From Pseudomonas sessilinigenes (GTDB lineage Bacteria; Pseudomonadota; Gammaproteobacteria; Pseudomonadales; Pseudomonadaceae), in assembly GCF_003850565.1 (NCBI RefSeq), contig NZ_CP027706.1, positions 558,001 to 622,000 of the forward strand: a stretch of 64,000 nt of DNA, written 5' to 3'. A model generated the notes under the pieces. The model made no database searches, was not told the DNA's origin, and saw only the letters and a list, made by a program, of their open reading frames with translations. This document shows positions 9,185 to 34,769 of this stretch, piece after piece. The first letter of the stretch is position 1. Each line of letters starts with the position of its first letter. Made by a program: the position numbers and the translations under genes.

Positions 9185-9221
9185 AATCATCGGCCGTTTC
9201 AGCCTTTCGAATGTATAGACG

Positions 9222-9236: not shown

Positions 9237-9440
9237 GAGGAATGGCTTGTGGCCTCCTGCTGCGTTGTGAGAAAAATCGTTACTCTTGGTCTTTTGTCGA
9301 CAGGAATTAGCGGATATTTGATTCTTGGTGCCAAAGAATGGCTATTTTCAGCTATTTCTAACCTTTGTTCGACACTCCGCCTGCTGCCCGCCCTTCATAT
9401 TTCCTTCAGCCTGCATTTTCACGCCCATCAAGGATAGCCC

Positions 9441-17270: not shown

Positions 17271-18019
17271 CTGATTTCCTGGCGTCCGAGGAACGTGCGC
17301 TGCTGGAGCGCAACGGGCTCGGCACTTTCGATCAGCTGTGGGCCAGGCAACTGGATGCGGTGGACGAACCCAATACCGGACGTGGCGGCCATAGCAGCGT
17401 CTATCGGTTGGATGTGGAAGGGCGAGGGTTCTATCTCAAGCGCCAGACCAATTACCTGACCCACACCTTGCGCCATCCTTTTGGCGAGCCGAGCTTCTCG
17501 CGTGAGTTTCGCAATATCCGCCGTTATCAGCAGTTGGGAATTCCAGCCCTGCAGGCGGTGTTTTTCGGGATGCGCAAGGTCAATGGCGAGTCCCGGGCGA
17601 TCCTCATGACCCGGGCCCTGGATGGCTGGGATGACCTGGATGCGTTGTTGGCGCAATGGGCCCAGATGCCGGAGCTCCAGCGCCAGGCGGTGCTCAAGGC
17701 CTGTGGGCATTTGGCTCGCCAACTGCACGGCCTGCGCCAGGTGCACGGCTGCTTTTATCCCAAGCATATTTTCCTGCGTCCGGAAGGGGCGGGTTACCAG
17801 GCGCAACTGATCGACCTGGAGAAAACCCGGCCATTGCTGTTCGGCCAGCGCGACCGGGTCAAGGATCTCGAGCCGCTGTTGCGCCGAGCTTCGGTGTGGG
17901 GTGTCGAGGATGTGCGCTGCCTGTTGGCGACCTACCTGGACCAACCCTTGGACAGCTCGCTGTTGGATGCCTGGGTCGCCCGTCTCAGTGCCCGTAGCAG
18001 CCACAAGGAATCTCGCTGA
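17267..18019 (+). CDS. wapQ: LPS core kinase-like protein, WapQ family
   Basis: A 250-residue kinase-fold protein, third of four consecutive kinase genes, matching PA5007 (WapQ) by position. A nucleotide-site segment (FYLKRQTNYLTH, ~48) and a metal segment (QLIDLEKTRPLLFG) are present. The catalytic loop reads HGCFYPKHIFL: Cys stands where kinases have the catalytic Asp and His replaces the metal-binding Asn, so the mechanism is non-canonical or the protein is a pseudokinase. ATGA overlap upstream, one-base overlap downstream. Confidence 0.8.
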   Translation: MTDFLASEERALLERNGLGTFDQLWARQLDAVDEPNTGRGGHSSVYRLDVEGRGFYLKRQTNYLTHTLRHPFGEPSFSREFRNIRRYQQLGIPALQAVFFGMRKVNGESRAILMTRALDGWDDLDALLAQWAQMPELQRQAVLKACGHLARQLHGLRQVHGCFYPKHIFLRPEGAGYQAQLIDLEKTRPLLFGQRDRVKDLEPLLRRASVWGVEDVRCLLATYLDQPLDSSLLDAWVARLSARSSHKESR

Positions 18020-19473: not shown

Positions 19474-19592
19474 CCTGCGACCTGTGGTCGCTGCCATCGC
19501 CGCGATGAGCCCTGGAGGATCTCCCAGGGGCGTGGCGGCGATGGGACGGGCGCGCCGCGACGTCGTCTGGCTTGTGGCTTGCCGCTAGAGGC

Positions 19593-19616
19593 TTGCCCCT
19601 GCTTTTACGCTATAAT
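19593..19616 (+). promoter_or_regulatory. Putative sigma-70 promoter for wapO and downstream genes
   Basis: A perfect TATAAT (19611-19616) follows TTGCCC (19593-19598). The 12-bp spacing is too short for a classical pair, so only the -10 is strong. It lies ~93 bp before the wapO start, in a 235-bp spacer, and would start a second LPS transcription unit. Confidence 0.5.
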
Positions 19617-19708
19617 CCCGCCCTTTCGTTGTTTCTCGCGCTTTGCGAGCACACTTTATTTTCAAGGCGCTTTGCGCCCGCATGCAGACTAAACGAGGCT
19701 AGACCCCT

Positions 19709-21466
19709 GTGGCATTGACGATTCTTGGCCTGTCCGGCGCCCTTAGCCATGATCCTTCAGCAGCCCTGTATATCGACGGCAAGCTGATTGCCGCCGCTGA
19801 AGAAGAGCGTTTCGTGCGCGACAAGCATGCAAAGAACCGCATGCCCTACGAGTCGGCGAAGTTCTGCCTGGAACAGGCCGGGATCAAGCCTTCCGACGTT
19901 GATGTGGTGGCGATTCCTTTCGCCCCGATCAGCTTGTTCGGCAAGGCGCGCTGGCACTACGCCAAGCGCTACTGGTATGCCCCGGATCGTGCCCTGGACG
20001 CGATCCTGATGGGCAACCGCCGCTACAAGCGCTATCGCAAGAAGATCGTCTGGTGCCTGGAGCAGCTGGGCTTCGATCCGAAGAAGATCAAGATCGAGCC
20101 GGTCGAGCACCACCTGGCCCACGCTTCCAGCGCCTACCACTGTTCCGGCTTCAAGGAGAAGACCGCGATCCTCGGGATCGACGGCAAGGGCGAGTACGCC
20201 ACCACCTTCTTCGGCTATGGCGAGAACGGCAAGATCCACAAGCTCAAGGAGTTCTACGACCCGGACTCCCTGGGCGGCCTGTATGGCGCGATCACCGAGT
20301 TCCTCGGTTTCGAGATGCTCGATGGCGAGTTCAAGGTCATGGGCATGGCGCCTTACGGCGATGCCAGCAAATACGACTTCTCGCGCCTGGCCAGCTTTGA
20401 AAACGGCGAGCTGGTGATCAACACCGACTACGCCAACGTCATTGGCCTGCGCCGCTATAAAGAGAAGGGCAAGGGTTTCTACTTCTCGCCTAAGTTGATC
20501 GAGTGGCTGGGTCCCAAGCGTGAAGGCGACATCGCCGACGAGCCGTACATCCACTACGCCGCCAGCATGCAGGCGCTGTTCGAGAAGCTGGCCCTGCAGA
20601 TGATCGACCATTATCTGGGCGACACGCTGAAGGAAACCGGCAAGCTGGCCTTCGCCGGCGGCTGTGCGCTCAACGTCAAGCTGAACCAGAAGATCATCGC
20701 CCGTCCGGATGTGAAGGAGCTGTTCGTCCAGCCGGCCTCCGGCGATGCCGGTACCGCCGTCGGTGCCGCGGCCTACGTCTCCCACGCCCGTGGCGTACCG
20801 GTGGAGAAGATGGAGCACGTCTACCTTGGTCCGTCGTACTCCAACGAGGACGTGATCGCCGCCTGTGCCCGGCATCCGAACAAGCCGGCCTGGCGCCAGA
20901 TCGACAACACCCCCGAGCGCATCGCCAAAATCATGGTCGATGGCAACCCGGTGGCCTGGTTCCAGGGCCGCATGGAGTTCGGCCCGCGCGCCCTGGGTGG
21001 TCGCTCGATCATCGGTTGCCCAAGCGCCTCGGGCGTGGCCGACCGCATCAACGAGCAGATCAAGTTCCGTGAGCGCTGGAGGCCTTTCTGCCCGTCGATG
21101 CTCGACACCGTCGCACCACAGATGATCAAGGTCGACCATCCGGCTCCGTTCATGACCTTCACCTTCGAAGTGGCTGAAGAGTGGAAGACCCGGGTGCCGG
21201 AAGTGGTCCACGAGGACGGCACGTCCCGGGCCCAGGTGCTCAAGCGCGAATACAACCCGCGCTACTACGACATGATGAAGGCCCTGGAGGTCTTGACCGG
21301 CAACGGCGTGTCGCTGAACACCTCGCTGAACCGCCGTGGCGAACCGATGATCTGCTCGCCAACCGACGCCCTGAACATGTTCTACGGGTCCGACCTGCAG
21401 TACCTGATCATGGAAGACATCCTGGTGGTCAAAGACGGCGTGGATCCTTATGACACGGTCGGCTGA
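19709..21466 (+). CDS. wapO: LPS core carbamoyltransferase WapO (NodU/TobZ type)
   Basis: A 585-residue carbamoyltransferase expected to put the 7-O-carbamoyl group on heptose II from carbamoyl phosphate and ATP. The N-terminal half is the Kae1-like ASKHA domain (LGLSGALSHDPSAAL; VEHHLAHASSAYHCSGF with metal-binding His; GIDGKGEYATTFFGYG). The C-terminal YrdC-like carbamoyl domain has GRMEFGPRALGGRSII and NTSLNRRGEPMICSP. The start is GTG in the family's MALTILGLSG context. It overlaps wapH by 17 bp. By position it matches PA5005. Confidence 0.9.
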   Translation: MALTILGLSGALSHDPSAALYIDGKLIAAAEEERFVRDKHAKNRMPYESAKFCLEQAGIKPSDVDVVAIPFAPISLFGKARWHYAKRYWYAPDRALDAILMGNRRYKRYRKKIVWCLEQLGFDPKKIKIEPVEHHLAHASSAYHCSGFKEKTAILGIDGKGEYATTFFGYGENGKIHKLKEFYDPDSLGGLYGAITEFLGFEMLDGEFKVMGMAPYGDASKYDFSRLASFENGELVINTDYANVIGLRRYKEKGKGFYFSPKLIEWLGPKREGDIADEPYIHYAASMQALFEKLALQMIDHYLGDTLKETGKLAFAGGCALNVKLNQKIIARPDVKELFVQPASGDAGTAVGAAAYVSHARGVPVEKMEHVYLGPSYSNEDVIAACARHPNKPAWRQIDNTPERIAKIMVDGNPVAWFQGRMEFGPRALGGRSIIGCPSASGVADRINEQIKFRERWRPFCPSMLDTVAPQMIKVDHPAPFMTFTFEVAEEWKTRVPEVVHEDGTSRAQVLKREYNPRYYDMMKALEVLTGNGVSLNTSLNRRGEPMICSPTDALNMFYGSDLQYLIMEDILVVKDGVDPYDTVG

Positions 21467-22580
21467 ACGCCATGTGCTGCAGTTCTGCCACGGCTATGAC
21501 GGGCCGTTCCTGGACTGCGCGCGGCAATATGCCAACCTGTTCGCGGGCAGCGGCTATCGGGTGACCACGGTCTTTCTGACCGGGGTCGCCGATGCCGAGG
21601 TCGCCGCGGGTTGCGCGTCCGACGAAGTGCTGTTCATGGAGTACAGTTCCAAGGCCATTCGTGGCCTGAAGCTGGGCGCTATCCGTGACCTGCGCAAGAT
21701 CGCCGCATCGCGCAACTTCAGCTTCTGCATCGCCCATCGCTTCAAGCCGATCTACATCGCCCTGCTGGGGACGCGCCTGCCGGTGATCGGCGTCCACCAT
21801 GCGTTCAGCGACTACAAGCGCGGCAGCCGCAAGCTGTTCGCCGGGCTGTTCGGCAAGCGCCTGAGCCTGCTCGGGGTCTCCGACGCGGTGCGCGACGATA
21901 TGCGTGCCTGCCTGCCCAAGTGGCCGGCGCAGCGGATCCAGACCCTGTACAACCGGATCGACCTGGAGGCCTTGCAGGCCAGCCAGTTGAGCCGGGCCGA
22001 AGCCCGTACCGAGCTGGGCCTGCCCGCCGATGCCTGGATCGTCGGCAACGTCGGGCGCCTGCATCCGGACAAGGACCAGGCCACCTTGTTGCGTGGTTTC
22101 GCCGCGGCAGTGGCGCAGCTCCCCCAGGGCAGCCAGTTGGCGATCCTGGGTACCGGCCGCCTGGACAAGGACCTCAAGTCCCTGGCCCGGGAGTTGGGAA
22201 TCGCCGACCGCGTGCTGTTCCTCGGCCAGGTCCCTGAGGCCCGGCGCTATTTCCGGGCGTTCGATGTATTCGCCCTGAGTTCCGACCACGAGCCTTTCGG
22301 CATGGTCCTGCTGGAGGCCATGGCCGCCGGCGTGCCCTTGCTGGCCACTGCCTGTGGTGGCGCCAAGGAAGTGGTCGAGGGGGTGGGCATCCTGTTCCCT
22401 CTGGGTGATGTCGAGCACCTGGCCCAGGGCCTGCAGCACCTGGCGGCGATGGATGAACATCAGCGCCGGGTCTGCGCCGAGCTGATGTCCGATCGCCTGC
22501 GCGAGCGTTTCTCCGATCGGGCCGTACGCGACGTATTCTGGCGCTTGCCACAAGTCACCGAACTGACCGCGAGGGGCTGA
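21450..22580 (+). CDS. wapH: LPS outer-core glycosyltransferase WapH (GT4)
   Basis: A 376-residue GT-B glycosyltransferase. GNVGRLHPDKDQATLLRGF (~196) opens the donor domain, and the EX7E motif is EPFGMVLLE followed by AMAAGVPLLATACGG. It corresponds to PA5004 (WapH), which adds a glucose to the outer core; the exact sugar here is inferred. The start lies inside the end of wapO and its stop overlaps the next ATG, so expression is coupled. Confidence 0.85.
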   Translation: MTRSAERHVLQFCHGYDGPFLDCARQYANLFAGSGYRVTTVFLTGVADAEVAAGCASDEVLFMEYSSKAIRGLKLGAIRDLRKIAASRNFSFCIAHRFKPIYIALLGTRLPVIGVHHAFSDYKRGSRKLFAGLFGKRLSLLGVSDAVRDDMRACLPKWPAQRIQTLYNRIDLEALQASQLSRAEARTELGLPADAWIVGNVGRLHPDKDQATLLRGFAAAVAQLPQGSQLAILGTGRLDKDLKSLARELGIADRVLFLGQVPEARRYFRAFDVFALSSDHEPFGMVLLEAMAAGVPLLATACGGAKEVVEGVGILFPLGDVEHLAQGLQHLAAMDEHQRRVCAELMSDRLRERFSDRAVRDVFWRLPQVTELTARG

Positions 22581-23476
22581 TGCTCAATCGATTCCAAGGC
22601 TGGCGCGAGCGTGGCTGGTCCGTCATCGACGCGTCGACCTATGCCGATGCCTGGCAGCGTTTCGGTGGCAGCGTGGCGACCCATCCGTTGGTCGTTGCGC
22701 AGTTGGCCGACCTGGCACAGATTCCAGTGCGCTACCTGGCCTTCGAATGCGCTGGCCAGTTGCAGGCGGCCATCGCCACCTGGGGTCGGGACTTGGCGCT
22801 GTCCAAGGATGTGCTCAAGCGCGCGGGCAAGAAGGGCTTGTTCGACATCGGCAATGCCGAGTTGATCCTGCCGGCCGCCGCAGATGCTCAAGTTCCACTG
22901 CGCCATCGCGGGCGCTACCTCTCGGCCCTGAACGAAGGACGCTTCAGCGGCCAGCGACCCCAGGCCGAGCAGCTCGCCATGGCCAGGACCCCCGAAGAAC
23001 TGTCGAAGAAGTTCCGCTACAACCAGCGTCGTGAACTGCGCTTGCTGGAAGAGGCGGGCGGTGTGGTGCGTCCGGTGAGCGAGTTCACCAGCCCTGAACT
23101 GGCGGCTATCTACTGCGATCTGTTCCAGCGTCGCTGGGGGTTTGCCGCCACCGGTGCCGAGCGCATGGCCGAGGTGCTGGAGCGTCTGCGCGAGTTGTTG
23201 ATCGGCTCGGTGATTTTCCTCAATGATGCGCCGATTGCCGTGCAGTTGATCTATCGGGTCGAGGCGCCGGAGTGGATCAGCGTCGAGTATGTGAACGGTG
23301 GCGTCGACCCCGAGACTCGCGAGTTCAGCCCAGGCAGTGTGCTGAGTTTCCTCAATACCCAGAGCGCCTGGGAACAGGCTCGAGCCTTGAACAAGCCTCT
23401 GCGCTTTTCCTTCGGTCGTGCCGACCGAGAGTACAAGGACCGTTGGTGCAATCCTGTGCCGGTTTTCCAGGTGTGA
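22580..23476 (+). CDS. Mig-14-like protein (GNAT-fold family)
   Basis: A 298-residue protein resembling Mig-14 of Salmonella, an inner-membrane-associated factor for resistance to cationic antimicrobial peptides. The C-terminal half has the acetyltransferase-like stretch GSVIFLNDAPIAVQLIYRVE and the arginine-rich RYNQRRELRLLE that aligns with FemAB/GNAT-like proteins. There is no signal peptide. It corresponds by position to PA5003. Its place within the LPS operon suggests a role in surface charge, but no enzymatic activity can be assigned. Confidence 0.75.
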   Translation: MLNRFQGWRERGWSVIDASTYADAWQRFGGSVATHPLVVAQLADLAQIPVRYLAFECAGQLQAAIATWGRDLALSKDVLKRAGKKGLFDIGNAELILPAAADAQVPLRHRGRYLSALNEGRFSGQRPQAEQLAMARTPEELSKKFRYNQRRELRLLEEAGGVVRPVSEFTSPELAAIYCDLFQRRWGFAATGAERMAEVLERLRELLIGSVIFLNDAPIAVQLIYRVEAPEWISVEYVNGGVDPETREFSPGSVLSFLNTQSAWEQARALNKPLRFSFGRADREYKDRWCNPVPVFQV

Positions 23477-23484
23477 GTCAGCCC

Positions 23485-24897
23485 ATGAGTCGCAAGCAGC
23501 AACTGCTCAAGCGCCACCGGCGCAATAAACGAATCGCCTTGCTGATTGGCCTGGTGCTGATGCTGCTGGCTGGCGTCCTGGTGGCTTGGTGGTTGCCATT
23601 GCTGCTGGCGGTGGGTGCCTGGCTGGCTCACGAGGCCTGGTTCGCCGATCACCTGTTCTATTCGCCCAAGGATGACTATCTCTACGATTTCGGCGATCAG
23701 GCTCGGCAGATCCCCGTGCGCCTGGAGTCCGGGCGCCTGGTGCCGGAGTCGCCGTTGGAGCTGGCCCCTGGAGAAACCCTGGTTCTCGGGGTGCAGGTCA
23801 AGAGTTCCTGGCTGGGTCGGTTCTTCGATCCGACCATCGAGGTCGCAGGTGGCCAGAGCCTCGATCGCCAAGGTTTTGAGCGCGGGGTCGATGGCCTGCG
23901 CTACCTCAACCTGAGCGGCTTGACCGATTCGTTGGCCAGTGGCGAGCTGCAGTTGCGCGGGCGTCACTGCCGAATCCGTATCCAGCCGCAGTTGCTGGCG
24001 TGGCGCGATCCCGATTATCGCTGCCAGCGGGTCATGGTTATCGCTCCCCATGCCGACGATGCCGAGCTGGCGGCGTTCGGCCTGTACAGCCAGGCGGACG
24101 AAGCCTGGATCGTGACCCTGACGGCAGGGGAGATCGAGGCCGAGCACTACCAGGCCATGGGCCTGGAGCCGGCTGCGGCGGCGCAGCTCAAGGGGCGCTT
24201 GCGAGCCTGGGACAGTATCGCCGTGCCTCGCTGGGCCGGAGTTCCCGAAGCCCATTGCGTGCAATTGGGATACTTCTGCCTGCAACTTTCCGCGATGCAG
24301 GCGGCTCCAGAGCAGCCAGTGGCTTCCCGTGAGGCGCAATTGAGCGATATCCGCCTGTTCCGCCAGTTCAATCCGTTCCCGTTGCCCGCCGACCACGATG
24401 GTTTGCCGACCTGGAACAACCTGCTGGCCGACCTGCGCGAGTTGCTGCTCAAGGCCCGTCCCGACGTCATAGTGCTGCCCCATCCTTCGCTGGACCCGCA
24501 CCCGGACCATATCTGTGCCCAGGCAGCCGTGATGCAGGCGCTGGAGGGGCTGGAGTGGCAGCCGGACACCGTGCTCGGCTACGCCAATCACCTGCACGAC
24601 AATGATCGCTGGCCGATGGGTGACTCGGGGGCCGGTATTGCCTTGCCGCCGGTGTTCGACGCGAGCAGCGTGCTACGGCCCTGGTGCCTGTCGCTTTCCC
24701 AGGCCGAGCAGTATGACAAGGCCATGGCCCTGGGCATGATGCACGACCTGCAACCGAGGATGCCGTTCAAGCGGCGCCTGCGCAGATCGATACAACGCCT
24801 CTTGGCCGGCAGGGTGCCTTCGGCCTTGGGCGAGAACGAGTTTTTCCGCAAGGCGGTCAGGCGGCACGAGCTGTTCTGGCTGCTGCGGCAGCGATAA
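23485..24897 (+). CDS. dnpA: PIG-L family de-N-acetylase DnpA
   Basis: A 470-residue membrane-anchored deacetylase. The start chosen is the ATG giving MSRKQQLLKRHRRNKR, followed by two hydrophobic segments (~18-50). The PIG-L zinc motif is PHADDAELAAFG (~188) and the second metal site is LPHPSLDPHPDH (~330). PAO1 DnpA (PA5002) affects fluoroquinolone tolerance and probably removes an N-acetyl group from a core sugar; in this locus the likely substrate is outer-core HexNAc. An 8-bp gap separates it from the Mig-14-like gene. Confidence 0.87.
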   Translation: MSRKQQLLKRHRRNKRIALLIGLVLMLLAGVLVAWWLPLLLAVGAWLAHEAWFADHLFYSPKDDYLYDFGDQARQIPVRLESGRLVPESPLELAPGETLVLGVQVKSSWLGRFFDPTIEVAGGQSLDRQGFERGVDGLRYLNLSGLTDSLASGELQLRGRHCRIRIQPQLLAWRDPDYRCQRVMVIAPHADDAELAAFGLYSQADEAWIVTLTAGEIEAEHYQAMGLEPAAAAQLKGRLRAWDSIAVPRWAGVPEAHCVQLGYFCLQLSAMQAAPEQPVASREAQLSDIRLFRQFNPFPLPADHDGLPTWNNLLADLRELLLKARPDVIVLPHPSLDPHPDHICAQAAVMQALEGLEWQPDTVLGYANHLHDNDRWPMGDSGAGIALPPVFDASSVLRPWCLSLSQAEQYDKAMALGMMHDLQPRMPFKRRLRRSIQRLLAGRVPSALGENEFFRKAVRRHELFWLLRQR

Positions 24898-24949
24898 ACA
24901 GACATAACCAAAGGGGCGCTTTACAGCCCGAATCGACAGTGAGTCTTTT

Positions 24950-25828
24950 GTGATCAATCCTCGTCCGCGAATCTTGTTCCTCATGCCCTACTTCGGGCGC
25001 TGGCCTTTCTGGATGCCGTTCTTCCTGGAAAGCTGCCGACGCAATCCGGATATCGACTGGCTGTTCTTCAGCGACTGCGGCGTCCCGGACAATCTGCCGC
25101 CAAATGTCAGGCATGAAAGCATGAGCTTCGCCGACTACTGCGCTCTGGTTTCCCAGCGCCTGGGCATCGATTTCGCGCCCAAGGCCGCCTACAAGATTTG
25201 CGATATCCGACCGGCATTCGGGCTCATCCATGCCGATCGGCTGGAAGGCTACGATTTCTGGGGCTTTGGCGATATCGACCTGGTCTATGGCGATCTGCGG
25301 GCTTATTTCACGGCAGAACGCCTGGCCAAGCACGACCTGTTCTCCACCCACGAGCGGCGGATCGCCGGGCACTTGTGCCTGATTCGCAACAACGACCACC
25401 AGCGCGAGTTGTTCCGCAAGATCAAGAATTGGCAGGAGCGCTTTGTCGACCAGCAGCATCATGCCCTGGACGAGGGAGCGTTCACGCGGATCTTCCTCTG
25501 GCGCAAGAATTTCCCGGAGCCGCTGTTCAAGCTGGTGGGCAAGTTCAACCCGGAGCGCCGTCGCAGCGAGTTCACCGAGGCGTTCAGCACCCCGGGTGGA
25601 GTCATCAAATGGCATGACGGCAGCCACGACTTCCCCACGTGCTGGTACTGGAAGGATGGGCGCCTGACCAATGATCTCGATGGCGCTCGTACCTTTCCTT
25701 ATTTTCACTTCGTGTGCTGGAAGCGCAATGAATGGTCGGAGCTGGCGGAGCCTGATGCACAGGCGGTCCAGGCCCTGGCCAACGAGTCGTCCTGGCTCAT
25801 CGATGCCACAGGTTTCCATCGGGGATAG
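24950..25828 (+). CDS. DUF6625-like putative GT-A glycosyltransferase
   Basis: A 292-residue cytoplasmic protein starting at GTG (24950; an internal ATG 11 codons on is an alternative). The segment GFGDIDLVYGDLRAYF supplies a DxD-type metal/nucleotide-sugar motif, and RPRILFLMPYFGRWPFWMPF at the N-terminus resembles the start of a Rossmann-like GT-A fold. A late HFVCWKR pattern fits DUF6625 proteins found in glycan loci. It lies between dnpA and ssg and is spaced 2 bp from ssg, so it is part of the LPS operon. As recalled, PAO1 has nothing between PA5002 and PA5001, so this is probably a lineage-specific core-modifying gene. Donor and acceptor are unknown. Confidence 0.65.
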   Translation: MINPRPRILFLMPYFGRWPFWMPFFLESCRRNPDIDWLFFSDCGVPDNLPPNVRHESMSFADYCALVSQRLGIDFAPKAAYKICDIRPAFGLIHADRLEGYDFWGFGDIDLVYGDLRAYFTAERLAKHDLFSTHERRIAGHLCLIRNNDHQRELFRKIKNWQERFVDQQHHALDEGAFTRIFLWRKNFPEPLFKLVGKFNPERRRSEFTEAFSTPGGVIKWHDGSHDFPTCWYWKDGRLTNDLDGARTFPYFHFVCWKRNEWSELAEPDAQAVQALANESSWLIDATGFHRG

Positions 25829-25830
25829 TT

Positions 25831-26982
25831 ATGAGCCAGCGCTTCAAAGTCCTGCAATTGCAGCCGGACTACAACGTCAAATCCCATGATTTCGCCGACT
25901 TGGCCGAACAGATCGTCAAGGCCTTGCCCGACGAGCGTTATGAGGTCACCGCAGCGTTCCTGCGTGGCCGTCCCGGGCCTAACGACCCGGTGAGCCGGGC
26001 CGATCACTCGGTGTATTTCGAGTTTTCCGACAAGTCCCTCAAGGGCATGCGCCTGCGGGCCATGTGGCGGCTGTACCAGTTCTGCCGCAAGGAAAAGTTC
26101 GATGTGGTGATCTGCAACCGCTTCAAGCCGGTGAACATGATGCTGGCGCTCAACCGTTGGCTGAAGGTGCCGTTGTGCATCGGCATTTCCCACGGTTTCG
26201 GCGAGTACGATCGGTTCTACCGGCGGCGCCAGACCCAACGCCTGATCGATCGGCACTGGCGCTTCGTCGGCGTATCGCCAGCGGTCAAGCAGTACCTGCT
26301 CGATTGCCGGTGCGGTTTTACCGACCAGAACACCTGGGCCATCACCAACGCCATCGATATCGAGCAGGCTGAAGCCCTGCAGCATTCCCGCGAGCGCTCC
26401 CGGGAGTTATTGGGGCTGGATCCGACAGTCCGCCTGGTTGGCGCCCTGGGGCGGCTGGTGCCGGTCAAGGGGCATACCTACCTGCTGCAGGCGTTCGCCC
26501 AGCTCAAGGACAAATATCCACAAACCCAGTTGGCGATCATCGGTGCCGGGCGCGAAGAGGCCAATCTGCGGGCCGAGATCCAGCGCCTGGGCCTGGAGGG
26601 CCGTACTCACCTGCTGGGCTTCAAGGAAAATGCTTTGCAGTACGTGCGGGCTTTCGACATCTGGACCATGCCGTCGCTGGCCGAAGGCTTGGGCCTGGCC
26701 TTGCTGGAGGGCATGAGCGGGCGGTTGCCAGTGATCGCCTCCAACGTGCCGGCCATGCTGCCCTTGATCGAAGGAGCCGGCGGCCTGGCGGTGGAGCCGG
26801 CCAATGTGCCGTCGCTGGCGGCGGCGCTGGATGCCTACCTGGGACTGTCCGACGAGGAACTGGTCGCCAAGGGACAGCAAGCCTATCGCTATTTGCAAAA
26901 AGAACATGATATCGAGGTATTCCGTGGGCAATACCTGCAGTTGATCGACTCGGGTTTGAGTCAGGCGGGCAAGGGGCAGTAA
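25831..26982 (+). CDS. ssg: Cell-surface polysaccharide glycosyltransferase Ssg (GT4)
   Basis: A 383-residue GT-B enzyme. GALGRLVPVKGHTYLLQAFA (~205) and the EX7E motif EGLGLALLE followed by GMSGRLPVIAS are visible, with NAIDIEQ before the donor domain. It matches Ssg of P. alkylphenolia/PAO1 PA5001, needed for complete LPS, motility and phage sensitivity. It overlaps wapR by one base. Confidence 0.85.
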   Translation: MSQRFKVLQLQPDYNVKSHDFADLAEQIVKALPDERYEVTAAFLRGRPGPNDPVSRADHSVYFEFSDKSLKGMRLRAMWRLYQFCRKEKFDVVICNRFKPVNMMLALNRWLKVPLCIGISHGFGEYDRFYRRRQTQRLIDRHWRFVGVSPAVKQYLLDCRCGFTDQNTWAITNAIDIEQAEALQHSRERSRELLGLDPTVRLVGALGRLVPVKGHTYLLQAFAQLKDKYPQTQLAIIGAGREEANLRAEIQRLGLEGRTHLLGFKENALQYVRAFDIWTMPSLAEGLGLALLEGMSGRLPVIASNVPAMLPLIEGAGGLAVEPANVPSLAAALDAYLGLSDEELVAKGQQAYRYLQKEHDIEVFRGQYLQLIDSGLSQAGKGQ

Positions 26983-27866
26983 TGACAGACCAGCAACCTG
27001 TGGTGACGGTAATCATCGCCTCCTACAACCATGCGCCCTACATCGAGCAGAGCATCCTCAGCGTCATCAATCAGACTTACTCGAACATCGAGTTGCTGGT
27101 GGTGGATGATGGTTCCAAGGATGACAGCGTCGAGCGCATCCAGCGTCTGCAAGAGCAATATGGCTTTGATTTCCGGGTCCAGCAGAACCAGGGACTGACC
27201 AACACGCTCAATGGCGCCATAGCCCGGGCCAGGGGCAGTTTGATCGTGCCGTTCGGCTCGGACGACATCATGATGCCCGAGCGTATCGCCATCCAGGTGG
27301 CCTACATGGATGGCAAGCCTGAGGTGGGTATCTGTGCGGGCAACATCGAGCTGATCGACAGCGATGGCAATCTGTTCCCTGAGAAGCGTCAGCGCCGTGA
27401 CGTGCCGTTCCGGCGCCTGGACTTCGAGGATATGTTCCTGGAGCGCAAGCCCTATCCGCCGGCGCCGACCCTGATGATTCGCCGCGAAGCGCTGGACAAG
27501 GTCGGTGGCTTCGATCCGAACATCCGCCTCGAAGACTTGCTGATCGAGTTGAAAGTCACCCATGCGGGTTACTTCATCGATGGCCTGAACGTGGTGATGG
27601 CACGCTATCGCAAGCACGCCACCAATTCCTACAAGAACCACCGGTTCATGATCGACAACATCCTGCGTACCTATGCCTTGTTCAGTGATCATCCGCTGTA
27701 CGACGAGGTGCGCTACAAGGCCTTGAACTCGATGTTTCTCAAGGTTTCCAATCGCGACCGAGCGTTGGCTCGTGAGCTGCTGGCACAGATTCCGCTCAAG
27801 GCCTGGAACAAGAAAACCTGGCGCGGGCTGGCCCGCCTGTACTTTTCTGCACTTGAGAAAGACTGA
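26982..27866 (+). CDS. wapR: Alpha-1,3-rhamnosyltransferase WapR (GT2)
   Basis: A 294-residue GT2 enzyme: VTVIIASYNHAPYIEQSILS at the N-terminus, ELLVVDDGSKDDS, GSDDIMMPERI (DxD) and a C-terminal RLEDLLIELK (acidic catalytic-base region). In P. aeruginosa WapR adds the rhamnose to which WaaL attaches O antigen. It is the last gene of the plus-strand LPS cluster and is followed by a strong terminator. The call rests on position (PA5000) and family. Confidence 0.85.
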   Translation: MTDQQPVVTVIIASYNHAPYIEQSILSVINQTYSNIELLVVDDGSKDDSVERIQRLQEQYGFDFRVQQNQGLTNTLNGAIARARGSLIVPFGSDDIMMPERIAIQVAYMDGKPEVGICAGNIELIDSDGNLFPEKRQRRDVPFRRLDFEDMFLERKPYPPAPTLMIRREALDKVGGFDPNIRLEDLLIELKVTHAGYFIDGLNVVMARYRKHATNSYKNHRFMIDNILRTYALFSDHPLYDEVRYKALNSMFLKVSNRDRALARELLAQIPLKAWNKKTWRGLARLYFSALEKD

Positions 27867-27896
27867 CCTCAAGGTTCGCCCGAGTTCGCGCCCTAC

Positions 27897-27928
27897 AAAA
27901 AAGACAGCCCACTGGGCTGTCTTTTTTT
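27897..27928. terminator. Bidirectional terminator between wapR and the waaL-kinase gene
   Basis: AAGACAGCCC-ACT-GGGCTGTCTT forms a perfect 10-bp stem flanked by six A on the left and seven T on the right. It therefore works for both convergent genes. Confidence 0.95.
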
Positions 27929-27952
27929 GACTCTTGCTTGCGGGTGAAATCG

Positions 27953-29782
27953 TTATGCTGCTTTTAGCAGTCCCTGTGCCTGGTTCGCGGAGGTTAGTTG
28001 AGCGTAGCCAGAGCGCAGTGCATCGAGATGCTCATGGAAAAGCCACTGGTTATCTTCGGTATAACGCTGCATATGGCGCAGGTTGCGCTGGCGTAACGAA
28101 GACCTCAGGGGCGACGGATAGATCCGCAGGTCGGCTAGGTCGATCAGGCCGAACCCACCGCTTTCCAGGACCAGTACATTGGCCAGGTGCAGTGAACGGA
28201 AATACACGCCGTGTTCATGCAGGCTGGCCATGTAGACACCGAAGGCCCTGACCAGTTTGGCGCGTTCATCTGCAGATCCCGCGACCTGCAGGCAATGGCG
28301 CAGGGTTTGCCCGGCCAGCGGCTGGTAGCGAACGGCGCTACTGCCGTCGGCAAGACGGTACAAGTCCATGATGCTTGGCGTGACAATTCCCAGTTCACCC
28401 AGCTGTTCGCTGTTGCTGGCAAATCGTTCCGAGTAGGGGTTGAAACCACCTGAAGTGTACCAGCGGCGTGGGCGGAACAGCTTGAGGAAGCTGCCATCGT
28501 TGAGGCGCATGACCTTTGGTCCAAGACCATCGGACTCGATCACCCGGGCATCGCAAGTGAGTTGTTCCAAGGCGGCCGGTGCCAGTGTTTGCATGACGTG
28601 GGGAGGTGTGCGGCGAGCCCTTTGGGCAATGCACAGTGCGGCAATCAAGGCCAGGGGTATCCATAGCAGGAACCAGTGTTCCTTGGGACGTGACAACACT
28701 CCGCCGCCTTCGGTCAGTCCCGCACCGATACCAAATACCAACCAGCTCGAGGCAAGAACAACCAGTGGCGTACTGCGTAGCTGCCAACTCTTGAACAATC
28801 CCCAGGCCTGCATGAACAACCAGGGGACCAGGCCGACGATGCCAACGTAGTACAACACGCCCAAGGCAAAGTTATGAGGCTCGTCCAGGAAATAGCCGAT
28901 ATTCACATCCACGGCGAGGTTGGCGTTAAAGCCGTGGCCAATCCAAGGGTGCTCGGCAATGTAGTTCAGGACCAGCGCCCATATTTCAAGGCGATAGGAG
29001 TCCCCGCGTTCTCCCAGCATATGCGGGAACATCAGCAATACTGCCATTGCACCAGTCAGCATTGTCGTCAGCAGTATCAACGAACGCTTGTTCGAGTACA
29101 TGAAGCAGATCCAGGCGACCGCCAGCGTCAGCGCTACCAATGGCGTTCGAGAGCCTGTGGCAAGGACGGCGGCGAACATGACGGCCATGGCCGGAATGCT
29201 GAGCAGCAGAACCCGCATGCGTTGGCAACTCATGCTCAACCAGAGCCAGTACACCACGAAGAAGCCGAAGACGTGGGAGCTCAACAATGGATTATCAAAG
29301 GCCCCTCCGCCAATCATGCGTGCTCCGGGCGTGTAGGCCAGGCTGAATGTATACAGATTGAAGAGCGAGGCGACGAGCGCAACCATCGCTGCGCAAAAGC
29401 ACAAGGGTCGTAGCACATCAAGCCGATAGCTGACTAACAGGCTGCAACCGACAAAGAGCATCAGCAGGTGCGCAGGGGGTTTGAACTCGCCGGGCAGGCT
29501 ATCGACGGGAGGGCTCCAAGCCAGGCTGATCAAGGCCCAGATACAAAACAGCAGCACTGCAATGAAAATGGGTTCGCGCAATAGGCTCTTCAACTTGGTA
29601 GGTCGTATGCACAGCGCGATCAGTGTTGGAATGCTGAACAGGCCGTAATAAAGCTTATGTAAGAGACTGCGTTCCGGGAGGAAAAACAGTGCGCACAGCA
29701 GCAATAAATAGCCAGTCGGTAGAATCCATAGGCAAATAAAATCGAATAGTCGATTGGATAAATTGCGAAGAGCGCAGGGCAT
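27953..29782 (-). CDS. waaL: O-antigen ligase WaaL fused to a C-terminal LPS-kinase-like domain
   Basis: About 609 residues from the ATG at 29782; an in-frame TTG at 29860 would add 26. The first ~400 residues form a polytopic inner-membrane protein with about ten or more hydrophobic segments and the Wzy_C/WaaL features: ATGSRTPLVALTLA, the periplasmic SYRLEIWALVLNYIAEHPW with its Arg, and EPHNFALGVLYYVGIVGL with its His. Residues ~410-609 look like a Kdo/WaaP-type kinase fold: FLKLFRPRRWY (ATP-site Lys), YFRSLHLANVLVLE (catalytic loop with Ser in place of Asp) and GLIDLADLRIY (metal motif). PAO1 encodes ligase and a kinase-like protein as separate genes (PA4999, PA4998; recalled), so this looks like their fusion. 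The sequence is AT-richer than its neighbours, as is common for O-antigen ligases. It is divergent from msbA. Confidence 0.85.
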   Translation of the reverse strand: MPCALRNLSNRLFDFICLWILPTGYLLLLCALFFLPERSLLHKLYYGLFSIPTLIALCIRPTKLKSLLREPIFIAVLLFCIWALISLAWSPPVDSLPGEFKPPAHLLMLFVGCSLLVSYRLDVLRPLCFCAAMVALVASLFNLYTFSLAYTPGARMIGGGAFDNPLLSSHVFGFFVVYWLWLSMSCQRMRVLLLSIPAMAVMFAAVLATGSRTPLVALTLAVAWICFMYSNKRSLILLTTMLTGAMAVLLMFPHMLGERGDSYRLEIWALVLNYIAEHPWIGHGFNANLAVDVNIGYFLDEPHNFALGVLYYVGIVGLVPWLFMQAWGLFKSWQLRSTPLVVLASSWLVFGIGAGLTEGGGVLSRPKEHWFLLWIPLALIAALCIAQRARRTPPHVMQTLAPAALEQLTCDARVIESDGLGPKVMRLNDGSFLKLFRPRRWYTSGGFNPYSERFASNSEQLGELGIVTPSIMDLYRLADGSSAVRYQPLAGQTLRHCLQVAGSADERAKLVRAFGVYMASLHEHGVYFRSLHLANVLVLESGGFGLIDLADLRIYPSPLRSSLRQRNLRHMQRYTEDNQWLFHEHLDALRSGYAQLTSANQAQGLLKAA

Positions 29783-29939
29783 GCTTAGACGTTCATTCCG
29801 AAAATTAGGTCGGGCATGATAACGGCTAACCTCCAGTGGTGTCGTTTGTCTGCTGAACAATAACTGACAGAGGGGGATTTTCAGTGCGAAAGATAAGCTG
29901 TGCTAAAGTCACTCTCCTTTTTGACTACGTTCGCGTGAT

Positions 29940-31745
29940 ATGACCGACTCCAGCCCCGGCGTAAGCCCTTCAAGTCTGAAAATCTATTTCCGCCTTCTCG
30001 GCTATGTGCGGCCTTATATTGGGTTGTTCCTCATCAGCATCATCGGGTTCCTGATCTTCGCCTCGACCCAACCCATGCTTGGGTACATCCTCAAGTACTT
30101 CGTCGATGGCCTGTCCAATCCACAAGCCGTGCTGTTCCCCAGCGTGCCTTATCTGCGTGACATGCAGCTGCTGCAGGCCGTGCCCCTGTTGATCGTATTG
30201 ATTGCCGCCTGGCAAGGCCTCGGCTCCTATCTGGGCAACTACTTCCTGGCCAAGGTGTCCCTGGGGCTGGTGCATGATCTGCGGGTAGAGCTGTTCAACA
30301 ACCTGCTGACCCTGCCCAATCGCTATTTTGACAAACATAACTCTGGGCACCTGATCTCGCGCATCACCTTCAACGTAACCATGGTGACAGGGGCGGCGAC
30401 GGATGCGATCAAAGTGGTGATCCGCGAAGGCATGACAGTGGTCTTCCTGTTTGCCTCCCTGTTGTGGATGAACTGGCGCTTGACCCTGGTGATGATCGCC
30501 ATCCTGCCGCTGATTGCCGTCATGGTCCGCACTGCCAGCAAGAAATTCCGCAAGCAAAGCAAAAAAATCCAGGTAGCCATGGGTGACGTGACTCACGTTG
30601 CTTCGGAAACCATCCAGGGTTATCGCGTCGTACGCAGTTTCGGTGGTGAGGTCTATGAGCAGCAGCGGTTTCTCGCTGCCAGTCAGGGCAATACCGATAA
30701 GCAGTTGCGTATGACACGCACTGGAGCCATCTATACGCCGTTGCTGCAATTGGTGATCTACAGCGCCATGGCGATATTGATGTTTCTGGTGCTCTACCTG
30801 CGCGGCGATGCTTCGGCGGGTGAAATGGTTGCCTACATCACGATGGCTGGCTTGCTGCCCAAGCCTATCCGTCAGTTGTCCGAAGTCAGCTCCACCATCC
30901 AGCGAGGGGTGGCCGGTGCCGAAAGTATTTTCGAGCAGCTGGATGTCGAGCCGGAAGTCGATCGCGGCACCGTGGAGAACTCCAATGTCAGTGGCCGCCT
31001 GGAAGTACGCAATCTGAGCTTTACCTATCCTGGTACTGAGCGTCAGGTGCTTGATGACATCAGCTTCAGCGTCGAACCGGGAGAGATGGTGGCGTTGGTC
31101 GGGCGTTCAGGCAGTGGCAAGTCGACCCTGGCCAATCTGATTCCGCGCTTTTACCACCATGACAAAGGTCAGATCCTTCTGGATGGTACGGAGATCGAAG
31201 ACTATCGCTTGCTGAATCTGCGTCGGCATATTGCCCAGGTCACTCAGCATGTGACCCTGTTCAGTGACAGTGTTGCCAACAATATTGCCTATGGCGACTT
31301 GGCTGGTGCGCCGCGTGAGGACATCGAAAAGGCGGCCGGCGATGCCTATGCGATGGATTTCATCTCACAGTTGCCTGACGGGCTGGACACTCAGGTTGGC
31401 GAGAATGGCGTGCTGCTTTCAGGTGGTCAGCGCCAGCGCTTGGCAATTGCCAGGGCCCTGTTGAAAAACGCCCCGCTACTGATCCTTGATGAGGCTACCT
31501 CGGCCCTGGATACGGAGTCTGAGCGGCATATCCAGGCGGCACTGGACAAGGTCATGAAGGGGCGTACTACCCTGGTGATTGCCCATCGCCTGTCGACCAT
31601 CGAGAAGGCCGACCTGATCCTGGTCATGGATCAGGGGCGGATTGTCGAGCGTGGCACTCATGTGGAGTTGCTGGCTCAGAACGGTCATTACTCGCGCCTT
31701 CATGCCATGGGCTTGGAGGAGCCGGCCCCTACCGGAGCCGTATGA
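29940..31745 (+). CDS. msbA: Lipid A-core flippase MsbA (ABC exporter)
   Basis: A 601-residue half-transporter that moves core-lipid A across the inner membrane. Six transmembrane helices lie in residues ~25-320, followed by the nucleotide-binding domain: Walker A GRSGSGKST, Q-loop VTQHVTLF, signature LSGGQRQRLA, Walker B LLILDEATSALD and H-loop IAHRLST. It is complete and typical. A GC-rich hairpin follows at 31752-31774. As recalled, PAO1 has hldE directly downstream; here a sulfotransferase pair intervenes. Confidence 0.95.
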   Translation: MTDSSPGVSPSSLKIYFRLLGYVRPYIGLFLISIIGFLIFASTQPMLGYILKYFVDGLSNPQAVLFPSVPYLRDMQLLQAVPLLIVLIAAWQGLGSYLGNYFLAKVSLGLVHDLRVELFNNLLTLPNRYFDKHNSGHLISRITFNVTMVTGAATDAIKVVIREGMTVVFLFASLLWMNWRLTLVMIAILPLIAVMVRTASKKFRKQSKKIQVAMGDVTHVASETIQGYRVVRSFGGEVYEQQRFLAASQGNTDKQLRMTRTGAIYTPLLQLVIYSAMAILMFLVLYLRGDASAGEMVAYITMAGLLPKPIRQLSEVSSTIQRGVAGAESIFEQLDVEPEVDRGTVENSNVSGRLEVRNLSFTYPGTERQVLDDISFSVEPGEMVALVGRSGSGKSTLANLIPRFYHHDKGQILLDGTEIEDYRLLNLRRHIAQVTQHVTLFSDSVANNIAYGDLAGAPREDIEKAAGDAYAMDFISQLPDGLDTQVGENGVLLSGGQRQRLAIARALLKNAPLLILDEATSALDTESERHIQAALDKVMKGRTTLVIAHRLSTIEKADLILVMDQGRIVERGTHVELLAQNGHYSRLHAMGLEEPAPTGAV

Positions 31746-31751
31746 TCCTGT

Positions 31752-31774
31752 CCTGGGGGGCTTGCCCCCCCAGG
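31752..31774 (+). terminator. Hairpin after msbA
   Basis: CCTGGGGGG-CTTGC-CCCCCCAGG forms a 9-bp GC stem a few bases past the msbA stop. No T-run follows, so it may be a weak or Rho-assisted terminator or an RNA-stabilising end. Confidence 0.5.
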
Positions 31775-31820
31775 GTTATCCGTCAAGGCACCTACTTGAG
31801 TTTGTATCGTCTTTCTTACA

Positions 31821-31834
31821 GTCTTGACCAAGAC
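31821..31834. promoter_or_regulatory. Inverted repeat in the AT-rich leader of the sulfotransferase gene
   Basis: GTCTTG-AC-CAAGAC is a perfect 6-bp inverted repeat overlapping TTGACC, a fair -35 hexamer, and followed by TAAATAATTT. No good -10 is found at 16-18 bp. It could be an operator over a promoter for the sulfation pair. Confidence 0.35.
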
Positions 31835-31923
31835 TAAATAATTTCCCATTACCTGCTTGTTATGTTTCCCGCCTGAATCTTTGATTGGATCGAGAGGGCT
31901 ATCCCTTTCGTGCGGGTGTCGGA

Positions 31924-32628
31924 ATGTTGCAACGCTTTGTATGGAAGTTATTGCCAAAGACTCAGCGGCACTTCTTGCTTGGGCGCCTGTCGGTGGTGGA
32001 CCGTCAGGTGGTAAACAAGTCCATGTCCGCCAATGTTCGTTTTCCTGAAGCTTTTTCCAGACATTCCTGCCTGTTCATCCATGTTCCCAAATGTGCCGGC
32101 AGCAGCATCTGCTCGGCATTGTTCGATGGCTGGATGCCAGGGCACTTGCCGTTGTACTGGTATGAACACCAGTTCCCGGAAGCATTTTCCAACTGCTTCA
32201 AGTTCGCTTTTGTCCGCGATCCTCTCGAGCGGGCCTATTCGGCCTACACCTTCCTGCGTAGCAACGATCTAGGGCGCCGGGATCGAGCCGCTCAGGACCT
32301 GGTTACGCATTATCGAGACTTTGATGATTTCGTCAGCCACTGGCTGCATCCGGAAAATGTCCACAAGCAGATGCATTTTGCTCCCCAGAGCGATTTCCTC
32401 ATTAACTCCCTTGGTCGTCTGTCCCTGGATTTCATGGGGTACCAGGAGCATTTGCCGCGTGACTTCCAGCTGTTGTGCGAGCGCCTGGGCGTCGAGGCGC
32501 AGCTCCCGCATGTCAACGGTACCCAGCAACGTGAGACGGCCCCAGTCAGGGAAATATGCTCAGTACGTACCCGACGCCTGGTACGTCGGGTTTATCAACG
32601 CGACTACGAGATGCTCGGTTATGAATAA
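31924..32628 (+). CDS. Sulfotransferase family 2-like protein (putative glycan/LPS sulfotransferase)
   Basis: A 234-residue cytoplasmic protein (start chosen at ATG, MLQRFVWKLLPKTQ; a TTG 13 codons upstream is in frame). LFIHVPKCAGSSI (~48-60) is the 5'-phosphosulfate-binding loop of Sulfotransfer_2 enzymes, with Lys in the catalytic place, and FAFVRDPLERAYSAY (~95-109) is the 3'-phosphate-binding Arg/Ser motif. It would transfer sulfate from PAPS to a hydroxyl. Its last 8 bases overlap cysC, which makes PAPS, a strong functional link. The gene is visibly less GC-rich than msbA and hldE and follows an AT-rich leader, suggesting transfer. Position inside the LPS cluster makes core LPS or O antigen the likeliest acceptor, but this is inference. 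Confidence 0.8.
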   Translation: MLQRFVWKLLPKTQRHFLLGRLSVVDRQVVNKSMSANVRFPEAFSRHSCLFIHVPKCAGSSICSALFDGWMPGHLPLYWYEHQFPEAFSNCFKFAFVRDPLERAYSAYTFLRSNDLGRRDRAAQDLVTHYRDFDDFVSHWLHPENVHKQMHFAPQSDFLINSLGRLSLDFMGYQEHLPRDFQLLCERLGVEAQLPHVNGTQQRETAPVREICSVRTRRLVRRVYQRDYEMLGYE

Positions 32629-33229
32629 GCCTGCCTGCGCGACCATGGAACAACCGCAGATTCGCCCTTATACCCTGTCGCTTTCATCTGGCGCCCGCGC
32701 GGCCCTCAAGCACCAGCAGCCGTGTTGTCTGTGGCTGACGGGCTTGTCGGGGGCAGGCAAGTCGACCCTGGCCAACTTGCTGGAGCTGCGGCTCAATGAA
32801 CTGGGCCTGCACACCTTCGTGCTCGATGGAGACAACGTGCGTACCGGTTTGTGCCGGGATCTGGGGATGGATGCACAGGCACGCAAGGAGAACATCCGAC
32901 GCATGTCCGAAGTGGCGCGGCTGATGGTAGAGGCGGGGCTGGTGGTGATCGTTTCGGCGATCTCGCCATTTCGTGTCGAGCGTGATGCGGCACGAGCATT
33001 GTTCGCCACCGGGCAATTCTTCGAGGTGTACATCAGCACACCGTTCGATACTTGCGCCCAGCGCGATCCCAAGGGGCTGTACAAGGCGGCGAGAGAGGGG
33101 CGCATCAAGAATTTCACCGGCCTGGACAGCCCCTATGAGGCCCCTTTGCAAGCCGAATGCGAGATCGATACGGCGAGCATGGCACTACCGGAGGCGATTC
33201 GCTGCCTGTTGCAGCTTCTACAGCGCTGA
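32621..33229 (+). CDS. cysC: Adenylylsulfate (APS) kinase, stand-alone CysC
   Basis: A 202-residue P-loop kinase converting APS to PAPS. Walker A is LTGLSGAGKSTLA; DGDNVRTGLCRDLGM, ENIRRMSEVARLM and SPYEAPLQAE are the conserved APS-kinase segments. The ATG at 32621 lies within the end of the sulfotransferase gene; ATG 32645 is an alternative. Pseudomonads mostly assimilate sulfate through APS reductase and do not need PAPS for cysteine, so a dedicated copy coupled to a sulfotransferase points to sulfation of a product. Complete, no degenerate motifs. Confidence 0.92.
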   Translation: MNKPACATMEQPQIRPYTLSLSSGARAALKHQQPCCLWLTGLSGAGKSTLANLLELRLNELGLHTFVLDGDNVRTGLCRDLGMDAQARKENIRRMSEVARLMVEAGLVVIVSAISPFRVERDAARALFATGQFFEVYISTPFDTCAQRDPKGLYKAAREGRIKNFTGLDSPYEAPLQAECEIDTASMALPEAIRCLLQLLQR

Positions 33230-33335: not shown

Positions 33336-34769
33336 ATGAAGTTGTCCATGCCGCGATTCGATCAAGCCCCCGTCTTGGTGGTCGGCGATGTCATGCTCGA
33401 CCGTTACTGGCATGGTGGTACCTCACGGATTTCCCCTGAGGCGCCAGTACCGGTGGTCAAGGTCGAGCAGATCGAGGACCGCCCGGGCGGTGCCGCCAAC
33501 GTTGCCCTGAACATTGCTGCACTCGGTGCGCCCGCGTCCCTGGTCGGGGTAACGGGCGACGACGAGGCGGCCGACAGCCTTGCCAATAGCCTGCAAGGCG
33601 CCGGTGTACGCGCCCTGTTCCAGCGCATCAAGCATCAGCCGACCATCGTCAAGCTGCGGGTCATGAGCCGCCACCAGCAATTGCTGCGTATCGATTTCGA
33701 AGAACCTTTCGCCACTGACGCCCTGGCCCTGGCAGCTGAAGTCGACACACTGCTCGAAGGCATCAAGGTGCTGGTGTTGTCCGACTACGGCAAGGGTGCG
33801 CTACGCAACCACCAGGCGTTGATCGCCGCCGCTCGGGCGCGGGGCATTCCGGTGCTGGCCGATCCCAAGGGCAAGGATTTTTCCATTTACCGTGGCGCCA
33901 GCCTGATCACCCCGAACCTCAGCGAGTTCGAGACCATCGTGGGTGGTTGCACCGATGAGCATGACCTGGTGAACAAAGGCGCCAAGCTCATGCATGACCT
34001 GGAGCTGGGGGCATTGCTGGTGACCCGTGGCGAGCACGGCATGACGCTGCTGCGCCCGGGGCACCCGGCCCTGCACCTGCCAGCCCGTGCTCGTGAAGTG
34101 TTCGACGTCACCGGCGCCGGGGACACGGTGATCTCCACCCTGGCCGCTGCCATCGCAGCGGGTGAGGAGCTGCCCCATGCAGTGGGCCTGGCCAACCTGG
34201 CCGCAGGCATCGTGGTTGGCAAGCTGGGGACCGCGGCCATCAGCGCACCCGAGCTGCGCCGGGCGATCCAGCGCGAAGAAGGTACCGAGCGTGGCGTGCT
34301 GAGCCTCGACCAGCTATTGCTGGCCATCGACGATGCCCGGGCGCACAACGAGAAGATCGTTTTCACGAACGGTTGTTTCGACATCCTCCATGCTGGCCAT
34401 GTGACTTATCTTGAGCAGGCCCGGGCCCAGGGAGATCGCCTGATCGTGGCGATCAACGACGACGCCTCGGTCAGCCGCCTGAAAGGCCCTGGCCGGCCGA
34501 TCAACAGTGTCGATCGGCGCATGGCGGTACTGGCCGGACTGGGCGCTGTGGATTGGGTGATCAGTTTTCCCGAGGGTACCCCGGAAAACCTGCTGTCCCA
34601 GGTACGGCCAGATGTACTGGTCAAGGGCGGGGACTACGGCATCGATCAGGTGGTGGGCGCCGATATCGTCACGGCTTATGGCGGTACCGTGAAGGTGCTG
34701 GGCTTGGTGGAGAACAGTTCCACCACGGCCATCGTCGAGAAGATCCGCAAGACCGACAAAACCCAGTAA
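33336..34769 (+). CDS. hldE: Bifunctional heptose-7-phosphate kinase/heptose-1-phosphate adenylyltransferase
   Basis: A 477-residue HldE making ADP-D-glycero-D-manno-heptose, the precursor for WaaC and WaaF. The N-terminal ribokinase-like domain (~1-320) shows PGGAANVALNIAALG and DVTGAGDTVIST. The C-terminal nucleotidyltransferase (~345-477) shows FTNGCFDILHAGHVTYL (HxGH) and VAINDDASVSRLKG. The start is ATG (MKLSMPRFDQ), and length equals the E. coli enzyme. It converges on the 34975-35946 gene across a terminator interrupted by a repeat element. Confidence 0.96.
   Translation: MKLSMPRFDQAPVLVVGDVMLDRYWHGGTSRISPEAPVPVVKVEQIEDRPGGAANVALNIAALGAPASLVGVTGDDEAADSLANSLQGAGVRALFQRIKHQPTIVKLRVMSRHQQLLRIDFEEPFATDALALAAEVDTLLEGIKVLVLSDYGKGALRNHQALIAAARARGIPVLADPKGKDFSIYRGASLITPNLSEFETIVGGCTDEHDLVNKGAKLMHDLELGALLVTRGEHGMTLLRPGHPALHLPARAREVFDVTGAGDTVISTLAAAIAAGEELPHAVGLANLAAGIVVGKLGTAAISAPELRRAIQREEGTERGVLSLDQLLLAIDDARAHNEKIVFTNGCFDILHAGHVTYLEQARAQGDRLIVAINDDASVSRLKGPGRPINSVDRRMAVLAGLGAVDWVISFPEGTPENLLSQVRPDVLVKGGDYGIDQVVGADIVTAYGGTVKVLGLVENSSTTAIVEKIRKTDKTQ

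Follow-up and report, generated by a model that had tools for sequence, protein, structure and literature searches.

A candidate sulfation gene pair in the lipopolysaccharide core locus of Pseudomonas sessilinigenes

LpsS of Sinorhizobium meliloti is an Stf0-family sulfotransferase of lipopolysaccharide (LPS) (PMC12445080). Here, we analysed a 64,000-nucleotide stretch of the 6.9-Mb Pseudomonas sessilinigenes genome (C1:558001-622000, hereafter the window), in which the LPS core locus contains a gene pair encoding a Sulfotransfer_2-family sulfotransferase and CysC, a stand-alone adenosine 5'-phosphosulfate (APS) kinase (Table 1). LpsS, for which PMC12445080 cites Cronan and Keating 2004, differs from the window protein in family, being Stf0 rather than Sulfotransfer_2. 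The likeness is that of a sulfotransferase modifying LPS in a plant-associated Gram-negative bacterium. In Vibrio sp. KMM 8419, the cluster for a sulfated capsule contains a second cysC copy, cysN, cysD and sulfotransferase genes (PMC11641403) and resembles our locus in combining an extra cysC with sulfotransferases in a surface glycan cluster. However, that cluster is large, includes cysN and cysD and serves a capsule, whereas the window has an overlapping two-gene unit in an LPS core locus. The nearest solved fold is that of heparan sulfate 2-O-sulfotransferase (PDB 4ndz and 3f5f), a carbohydrate sulfotransferase solved with 3'-phosphoadenosine 5'-phosphate (PAP), but this is an animal enzyme with another acceptor and 22% identity over the aligned part. 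CysC shares its kinase family and motifs with stand-alone APS kinases and with the other APS kinase of the genome; the latter, however, lies in a 651-aa frame (41% identity), as would be expected of CysNC, whereas the CysC of the pair is unfused and tied to the sulfotransferase. No report of sulfated Pseudomonas LPS, or of such a sulfotransferase or pair, was found among open-licence PMC papers, and passages of PMC8719888, PMC13101516, PMC8370652 and PMC8306577 contain nothing on sulfated Pseudomonas LPS or the pair.

We consider it probable that the two genes form a unit of the LPS core locus dedicated to sulfation, which would sulfate lipid A-core before its export by MsbA. The sequences show both enzyme families, intact donor-site motifs, a predicted fold, purifying selection, the pairing and the neighbourhood; the enzyme activity, the membrane docking and the acceptor with its position we infer.

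The gene pair and its predicted chemistry

The sulfotransferase matched Sulfotransfer_2 (PF03567) with an E value of 1.6e-17 and 64.9 bits against a cut-off of 22, the best stretch covering protein residues 85-233 and positions 75-251 of the 252 in the profile. The same Pfam scan, at E values up to 1, gave a sub-threshold Sulfotransfer_1 match and two unrelated weak matches, and no Stf0 family. Both motifs of the site for 3'-phosphoadenosine 5'-phosphosulfate (PAPS) are intact: HVPKCAGSS (residues 53-61), which we take to be the PK.GGSS-type 5'-phosphosulfate loop, and RDPLERAYS (98-106), presumably the R...S 3'-phosphate site. These motifs are conserved across 137 family members, and H74, H151 and Q155 are conserved as well. 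A structural model with a predicted local distance difference test score (pLDDT) of 94 has the PAPS sulfotransferase fold and aligned best with heparan sulfate 2-O-sulfotransferase; an earlier model, built on 16 close sequences, was of poor quality (pLDDT 56) and was discarded. Searching the solved structures by sequence gave nothing useful with a small alignment and, with a larger one, only 3rnl, a weak sulfotransferase match (E 0.057). An earlier note on this DNA had staked its reading on a sulfotransferase fold and PAPS-site residues, and both were found, the fold by prediction.

CysC matched APS_kinase (E 1.1e-62) and scored above the cut-offs of NF003013 (245.7 bits versus 163) and TIGR00455 (228.8 versus 138.7). 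In alignment with the solved 3uie and 2pey, it has the P-loop GLSGAGKST and the motifs DGDNVR, ISPFR, RDPKGLYK and FTGLDSPYE; 3uie was the best solved match, over residues 18-182. The cysC gene begins within the sulfotransferase gene, the two overlapping by 8 bp (ATGAATAA), and coordinates and profile matches thus bear out the description of a Sulfotransfer_2 gene overlapping a complete stand-alone cysC between msbA and hldE. Among close relatives (15 pairs), dN/dS averaged 0.101 for the sulfotransferase, 0.115 for CysC, 0.032 for MsbA and 0.019 for HldE: both proteins of the pair are under purifying selection, weaker than that on housekeeping genes. For neither protein did the PADLOC models give a family at E 0.001, and the reading as a known defence system was rejected.

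The host genome encodes an APS reductase above cut-off. PAPS is not expected to be necessary for cysteine in the APS reductase pathway, and therefore not in this organism, in agreement with what had been proposed. The genome also encodes CysQ, which is able to remove PAP, and one Sulfotransfer_2 protein; genome scans found no Sulfotransfer_3 and no Sulfotransfer_1 protein.

The GC content of the sulfotransferase gene is 0.545 (0.647 at third codon positions, GC3), compared with 0.568 (0.709) for msbA, 0.611 (0.739) for cysC and 0.638 (0.772) for hldE. The gene is thus less GC-rich than these neighbours, as the earlier note had said, but it is not special in this respect, because the GC3 of the waaL-kinase gene is lower (0.585). 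For the same reason, low GC was unconvincing as a sign of foreign origin.

Directly 3' of msbA lies a strong GC-rich hairpin (31752-31774). Perfect stems of at least 6 bp within 80 nt after msbA occur in 15 of 27 loci, a count without a shuffled control; 13 of these stems start within 17 nt, and their sequences differ. A terminator scan of the leaders gave no hairpin with a T-run. The AT-rich block that follows in the window is partly conserved upstream of orthologs in an alignment of 27 leaders, and the combined pattern TTAC..TTGACYA..ATAw was present in 22 of these 27 versus 0 of 1080 shuffled leaders (27 leaders x 40 shuffles). A simple promoter scan placed a promoter-like site at 31815-31842, with no significant excess of sites (2 versus 0.7, sd 1.0, in shuffles). 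We read the hairpin as the putative end of the msbA unit and the TTAC..TTGACYA..ATAw block as a putative promoter of the pair. The AT-rich leader with a 6-bp inverted repeat described before was found in part: the repeat AGTCTT/AAGACT is present (31820-31825/31830-31835) and the GC content of 31781-31860 is 0.40, but that of the whole leader is 0.50, and shuffled leaders contained a mean of 0.76 inverted-repeat pairs per shuffle, so one repeat is at about chance level. As a candidate regulator site the repeat was rejected, being at chance level and perfect only in the window; 5 of 26 relatives carry it with a single mismatch.

Distribution and conservation in Pseudomonas

Matches to the sulfotransferase at E 1e-3 or better were found in 92 of 398 Pseudomonas genomes drawn, and the 80 at E 1e-45 or better were counted as close orthologs. 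The 12 others were fragments (G087, G080, G389, G220, G105 and G314) or distant proteins (G248, G303, G165, G027, G016 and G381). Residues and loci were counted on 79 orthologs, G335 being left out. Of the named relatives, those most similar to the sulfotransferase (84-88%) come from P. protegens, P. piscis and other Pseudomonas strains, which would most likely place the host near P. protegens.

The residues K56, S60, S61, S106 and H151 are kept in 76 of the 79 orthologs. Because cysC lies immediately downstream in 70 of the 80 orthologs (within 60 bp in 69 of 79), the pairing of the two genes is beyond chance, and the co-occurrence elsewhere that had been asked of the surveyed msbA-hldE loci was found. 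Pairwise distances of the sulfotransferase and CysC are correlated (Mantel r 0.88, n 68). In the 60 loci with HldE, r was 0.812 between sulfotransferase and CysC and 0.764 between sulfotransferase and HldE, and the former correlation appears to represent a modest excess over shared descent. The position between msbA and hldE is held in 71 of 79 orthologs. Since the locus is conserved in most carriers and the distances follow hldE, we rejected a recent insertion or cargo; the pair is not "inserted", as the earlier note had worded it, but an old resident of the locus in many species.

Relocation, loss and uncoupling of the two genes

Several observations weigh against a dedicated core-sulfating pair. 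With Foldseek alone, no match to the sulfotransferase model reached E 0.001 (best 0.011). In the stretches read, seven pairs (G022, G066, G085, G155, G229, G235 and G250) are located away from msbA and hldE; six of their sulfotransferases share 53-57% identity with the window protein, and the seventh 63%. At least three kinds of surroundings occur among these pairs, so both genes keep together through a change of place. In 15 genomes, a related cysC (63-68%) is present and the sulfotransferase is not, and seven further genomes have an intact sulfotransferase, motifs kept, without a local cysC. The PAPS residues are lost in three orthologs (G343, G146 and G161), with cysC absent at the locus in all three. 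Because the G343 and G146 proteins are 62% identical to that of G161, these are probably one clade and one loss event. Next to hldE, the orthologs at L102 3074-3703 (minus strand), L103 3168-3749 (minus strand) and L104 2716-3309 (plus strand) have lost K56, S60, S61, S106 and H151, and their frames are open over about 200 residues; these proteins are perhaps a former sulfotransferase with another role.

The cysC-only genomes indicate that cysC does not depend on the sulfotransferase. In 10 of the 15 the locus was read (G080, with a CysC of 61% beside a broken sulfotransferase, stands outside the 15): hldE follows in all, msbA immediately precedes in 6, and in the other 4 two further core genes intervene. 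Sulfotransferase fragments in L106, L113, L030 and L156 point to loss of the sulfotransferase, and the CysC proteins of cysC-only genomes have their nearest relatives in paired genomes or among themselves. A Sulfotransfer_3 protein is encoded elsewhere in 15 of 15 cysC-only genomes versus 5 of 14 genomes without an ortholog and without a close cysC, 4 of these 14 holding a more distant CysC match; it is also found in 7 of 7 genomes that have the sulfotransferase and lack a local cysC, and in 8 of 10 paired genomes. This protein may be what CysC serves in cysC-only genomes, although kinship could also explain the 15 of 15. CysC could supply PAPS generally, to other sulfotransferases or for other needs, and be only loosely linked to its neighbour, as its retention in the 15 genomes and the Sulfotransfer_3 counts would suggest. 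We regard this as quite improbable, given that the P. sessilinigenes genome itself has no Sulfotransfer_3 protein, that the pair stays together both at and away from msbA, that the sulfotransferase and CysC distances correlate, and that kinship confounds the 15 of 15. The surroundings of a Sulfotransfer_3 gene were read in one genome, which has cysC but lacks the Sulfotransfer_2 partner; there the gene (L222 9380-10270, plus strand) lies between a 2123-aa gene and a gene that we take from its sequence to be phage tail-collar-like.

All seven of the genomes that lack a local cysC beside an intact sulfotransferase contain a further CysC match (E 1e-38 or better), and for six of them its place is listed. 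This is weak evidence, because a comparable match occurs in 200 of the 398 genomes drawn.

The LPS core as the candidate acceptor

In a survey of the order, 36 genomes besides that of P. sessilinigenes had a match, and wide loci were read in 9 (a quarter). Three of the nine, from two other families, have a core operon setting. At L234, the sulfotransferase (37%) occurs with two heptosyltransferases, WaaP-family kinases, a wapO relative (77%), an O-antigen ligase and hldE (68%); at L235 and L236 alike, two heptosyltransferases and WaaP-family kinases lie next to the sulfotransferase or close to it. To the points against must be added that no CysC hit was found in the 20 kb read at L234-L236, and that the other six relatives, some matched over full length, are not in a core operon but in other glycan-type clusters or an unclear context. 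Together with the seven intact sulfotransferases without a local cysC, the lack of a CysC hit at L234-L236 indicates that PAPS can come from elsewhere. In the L234 core operon, a Sulfotransfer_3-type protein (10627-11472, plus strand) directly follows the sulfotransferase. Another neighbourhood of PAPS-making and PAPS-using genes is L242, a glycan-type cluster in which a 633-aa CysNC-like frame (8820-10721, minus strand; 57% to CysC) lies about 2.3 kb from a Sulfotransfer_2-like gene.

Within Pseudomonas, the core cluster of G027 combines a non-orthologous Sulfotransfer_2 protein (26%) with a CysC (57%), in the order carbamoyltransferase, sulfotransferase, ligase-like gene (below the Pfam cut-off), glycosyltransferase, pyruvyltransferase-like gene, cysC, kinase (on the other strand), msbA and hldE. 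As in other surface-glycan sulfation clusters, a PAPS gene and a sulfotransferase lie within one glycan locus in the window. The seven relocated pairs and the six order relatives outside core operons would fit a true PAPS-dependent pair that acts on some other surface glycan, on a lipid or on a small molecule, its place beside msbA being inherited rather than functional. This is unlikely in our view, since 71 of 79 orthologs remain between msbA and hldE, three order relatives are in core operons, and G027 has a non-orthologous sulfotransferase and cysC in its core cluster.

Sulfation of the O antigen or outer core instead of the inner core is suggested by the O-antigen ligase and the further glycosyltransferases of the locus, but the ligase modules vary. 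Among seven compared loci with the sulfotransferase, four have a window-like ligase-kinase fusion and three another module; among five cysC-only loci, the numbers are one and four. The sulfotransferase, found with two different ligase modules, therefore does not appear to track the O-antigen ligase, whereas the carbamoyltransferase is present in 12 of 12 loci and PIG-L in 11 of 12, and the companions at L234-L236 are heptosyltransferases and WaaP-family kinases. We thus judge this alternative very improbable. In the window, the fusion is one 635-aa frame with a Wzy_C O-antigen ligase and a C-terminal Kdo/WaaP LPS-kinase-like domain (below cut-off); some other Pseudomonas loci encode the ligase and the kinase separately.

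The acceptor that we prefer is the LPS core, to which gene neighbourhoods in several families point. The genes of the core cluster upstream of msbA, including the carbamoyltransferase gene that we take to be wapO, are likely the makers of the acceptor. CysC would phosphorylate APS to PAPS, and the cytosolic sulfotransferase, whose amphipathic, basic N-terminal helix may dock at the inner membrane, would move sulfate from PAPS to a hydroxyl group on the lipid A-core oligosaccharide at the cytoplasmic face, most likely in the inner, heptose-containing part of the core. MsbA would then flip the sulfated lipid A-core, and CysQ would clear the product PAP. Of the proposal that the pair makes PAPS and sulfates an LPS core, O antigen or other glycan, a PAPS-making and PAPS-using pair is supported by family, PAPS motifs, fold, selection and co-occurrence; for the acceptor, the neighbourhoods speak indirectly for the LPS core.

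Table 1. Features of the pair and its surroundings in the window
Feature	Coordinates	Strand	Remarks
Sulfotransfer_2-family sulfotransferase	31924..32628	+	234 aa; ATG 31924, TAA 32626-32628
Stand-alone APS kinase CysC	32621..33229	+	202 aa; ATG 32621, TGA ends 33229
Leader of the pair	31746..31923	+	GC-rich hairpin, then AT-rich block CTTACAGTCTTGACCAAGACTAAATAAT with promoter-like hexamers
msbA, lipid A-core flippase, usual 5' neighbour	29940..31745	+	TIGR02203, 836.3 bits, above cut-off
hldE, heptose precursor synthesis, usual 3' neighbour	33336..34769	+	NF008454, 770 bits, above cut-off
Remaining LPS core cluster	16536..29860	.	Pfam; members listed singly below
WaaP-family kinases	16536-17270, 17267-18019		Pfam
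Carbamoyltransferase, wapO type	19709-21466		Pfam
Glycosyltransferases	21450-22580, 25831-26982, 26982-27866		Pfam
Mig-14	22580-23476		Pfam
PIG-L deacetylase	within 23272-24897		Pfam
DUF6625	24950-25828		Pfam
O-antigen ligase-kinase fusion	27953-29860	-	Pfam

A close ortholog was found in 80 of the 398 genomes drawn. P. protegens, P. brassicacearum and P. chlororaphis, which are species with biocontrol strains, are among the named carriers. The chances seem to us evenly balanced that about one-fifth of Pseudomonas species sulfate the inner core of their LPS with an old core-modifying enzyme common to other families of the order. This enzyme would have been lost repeatedly, would sometimes occur together with its PAPS-making partner at other sites and, in one clade, would have been retained in another role after the loss of its PAPS site. 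Sulfate and phosphate differ by about 0.01 Da, and routine analysis can mistake sulfate for phosphate. The LPS core affects the encounters of the cell with antimicrobial peptides, phages, tailocins and plant or insect hosts, and a sulfated core, if true, would bring added negative charge to it.
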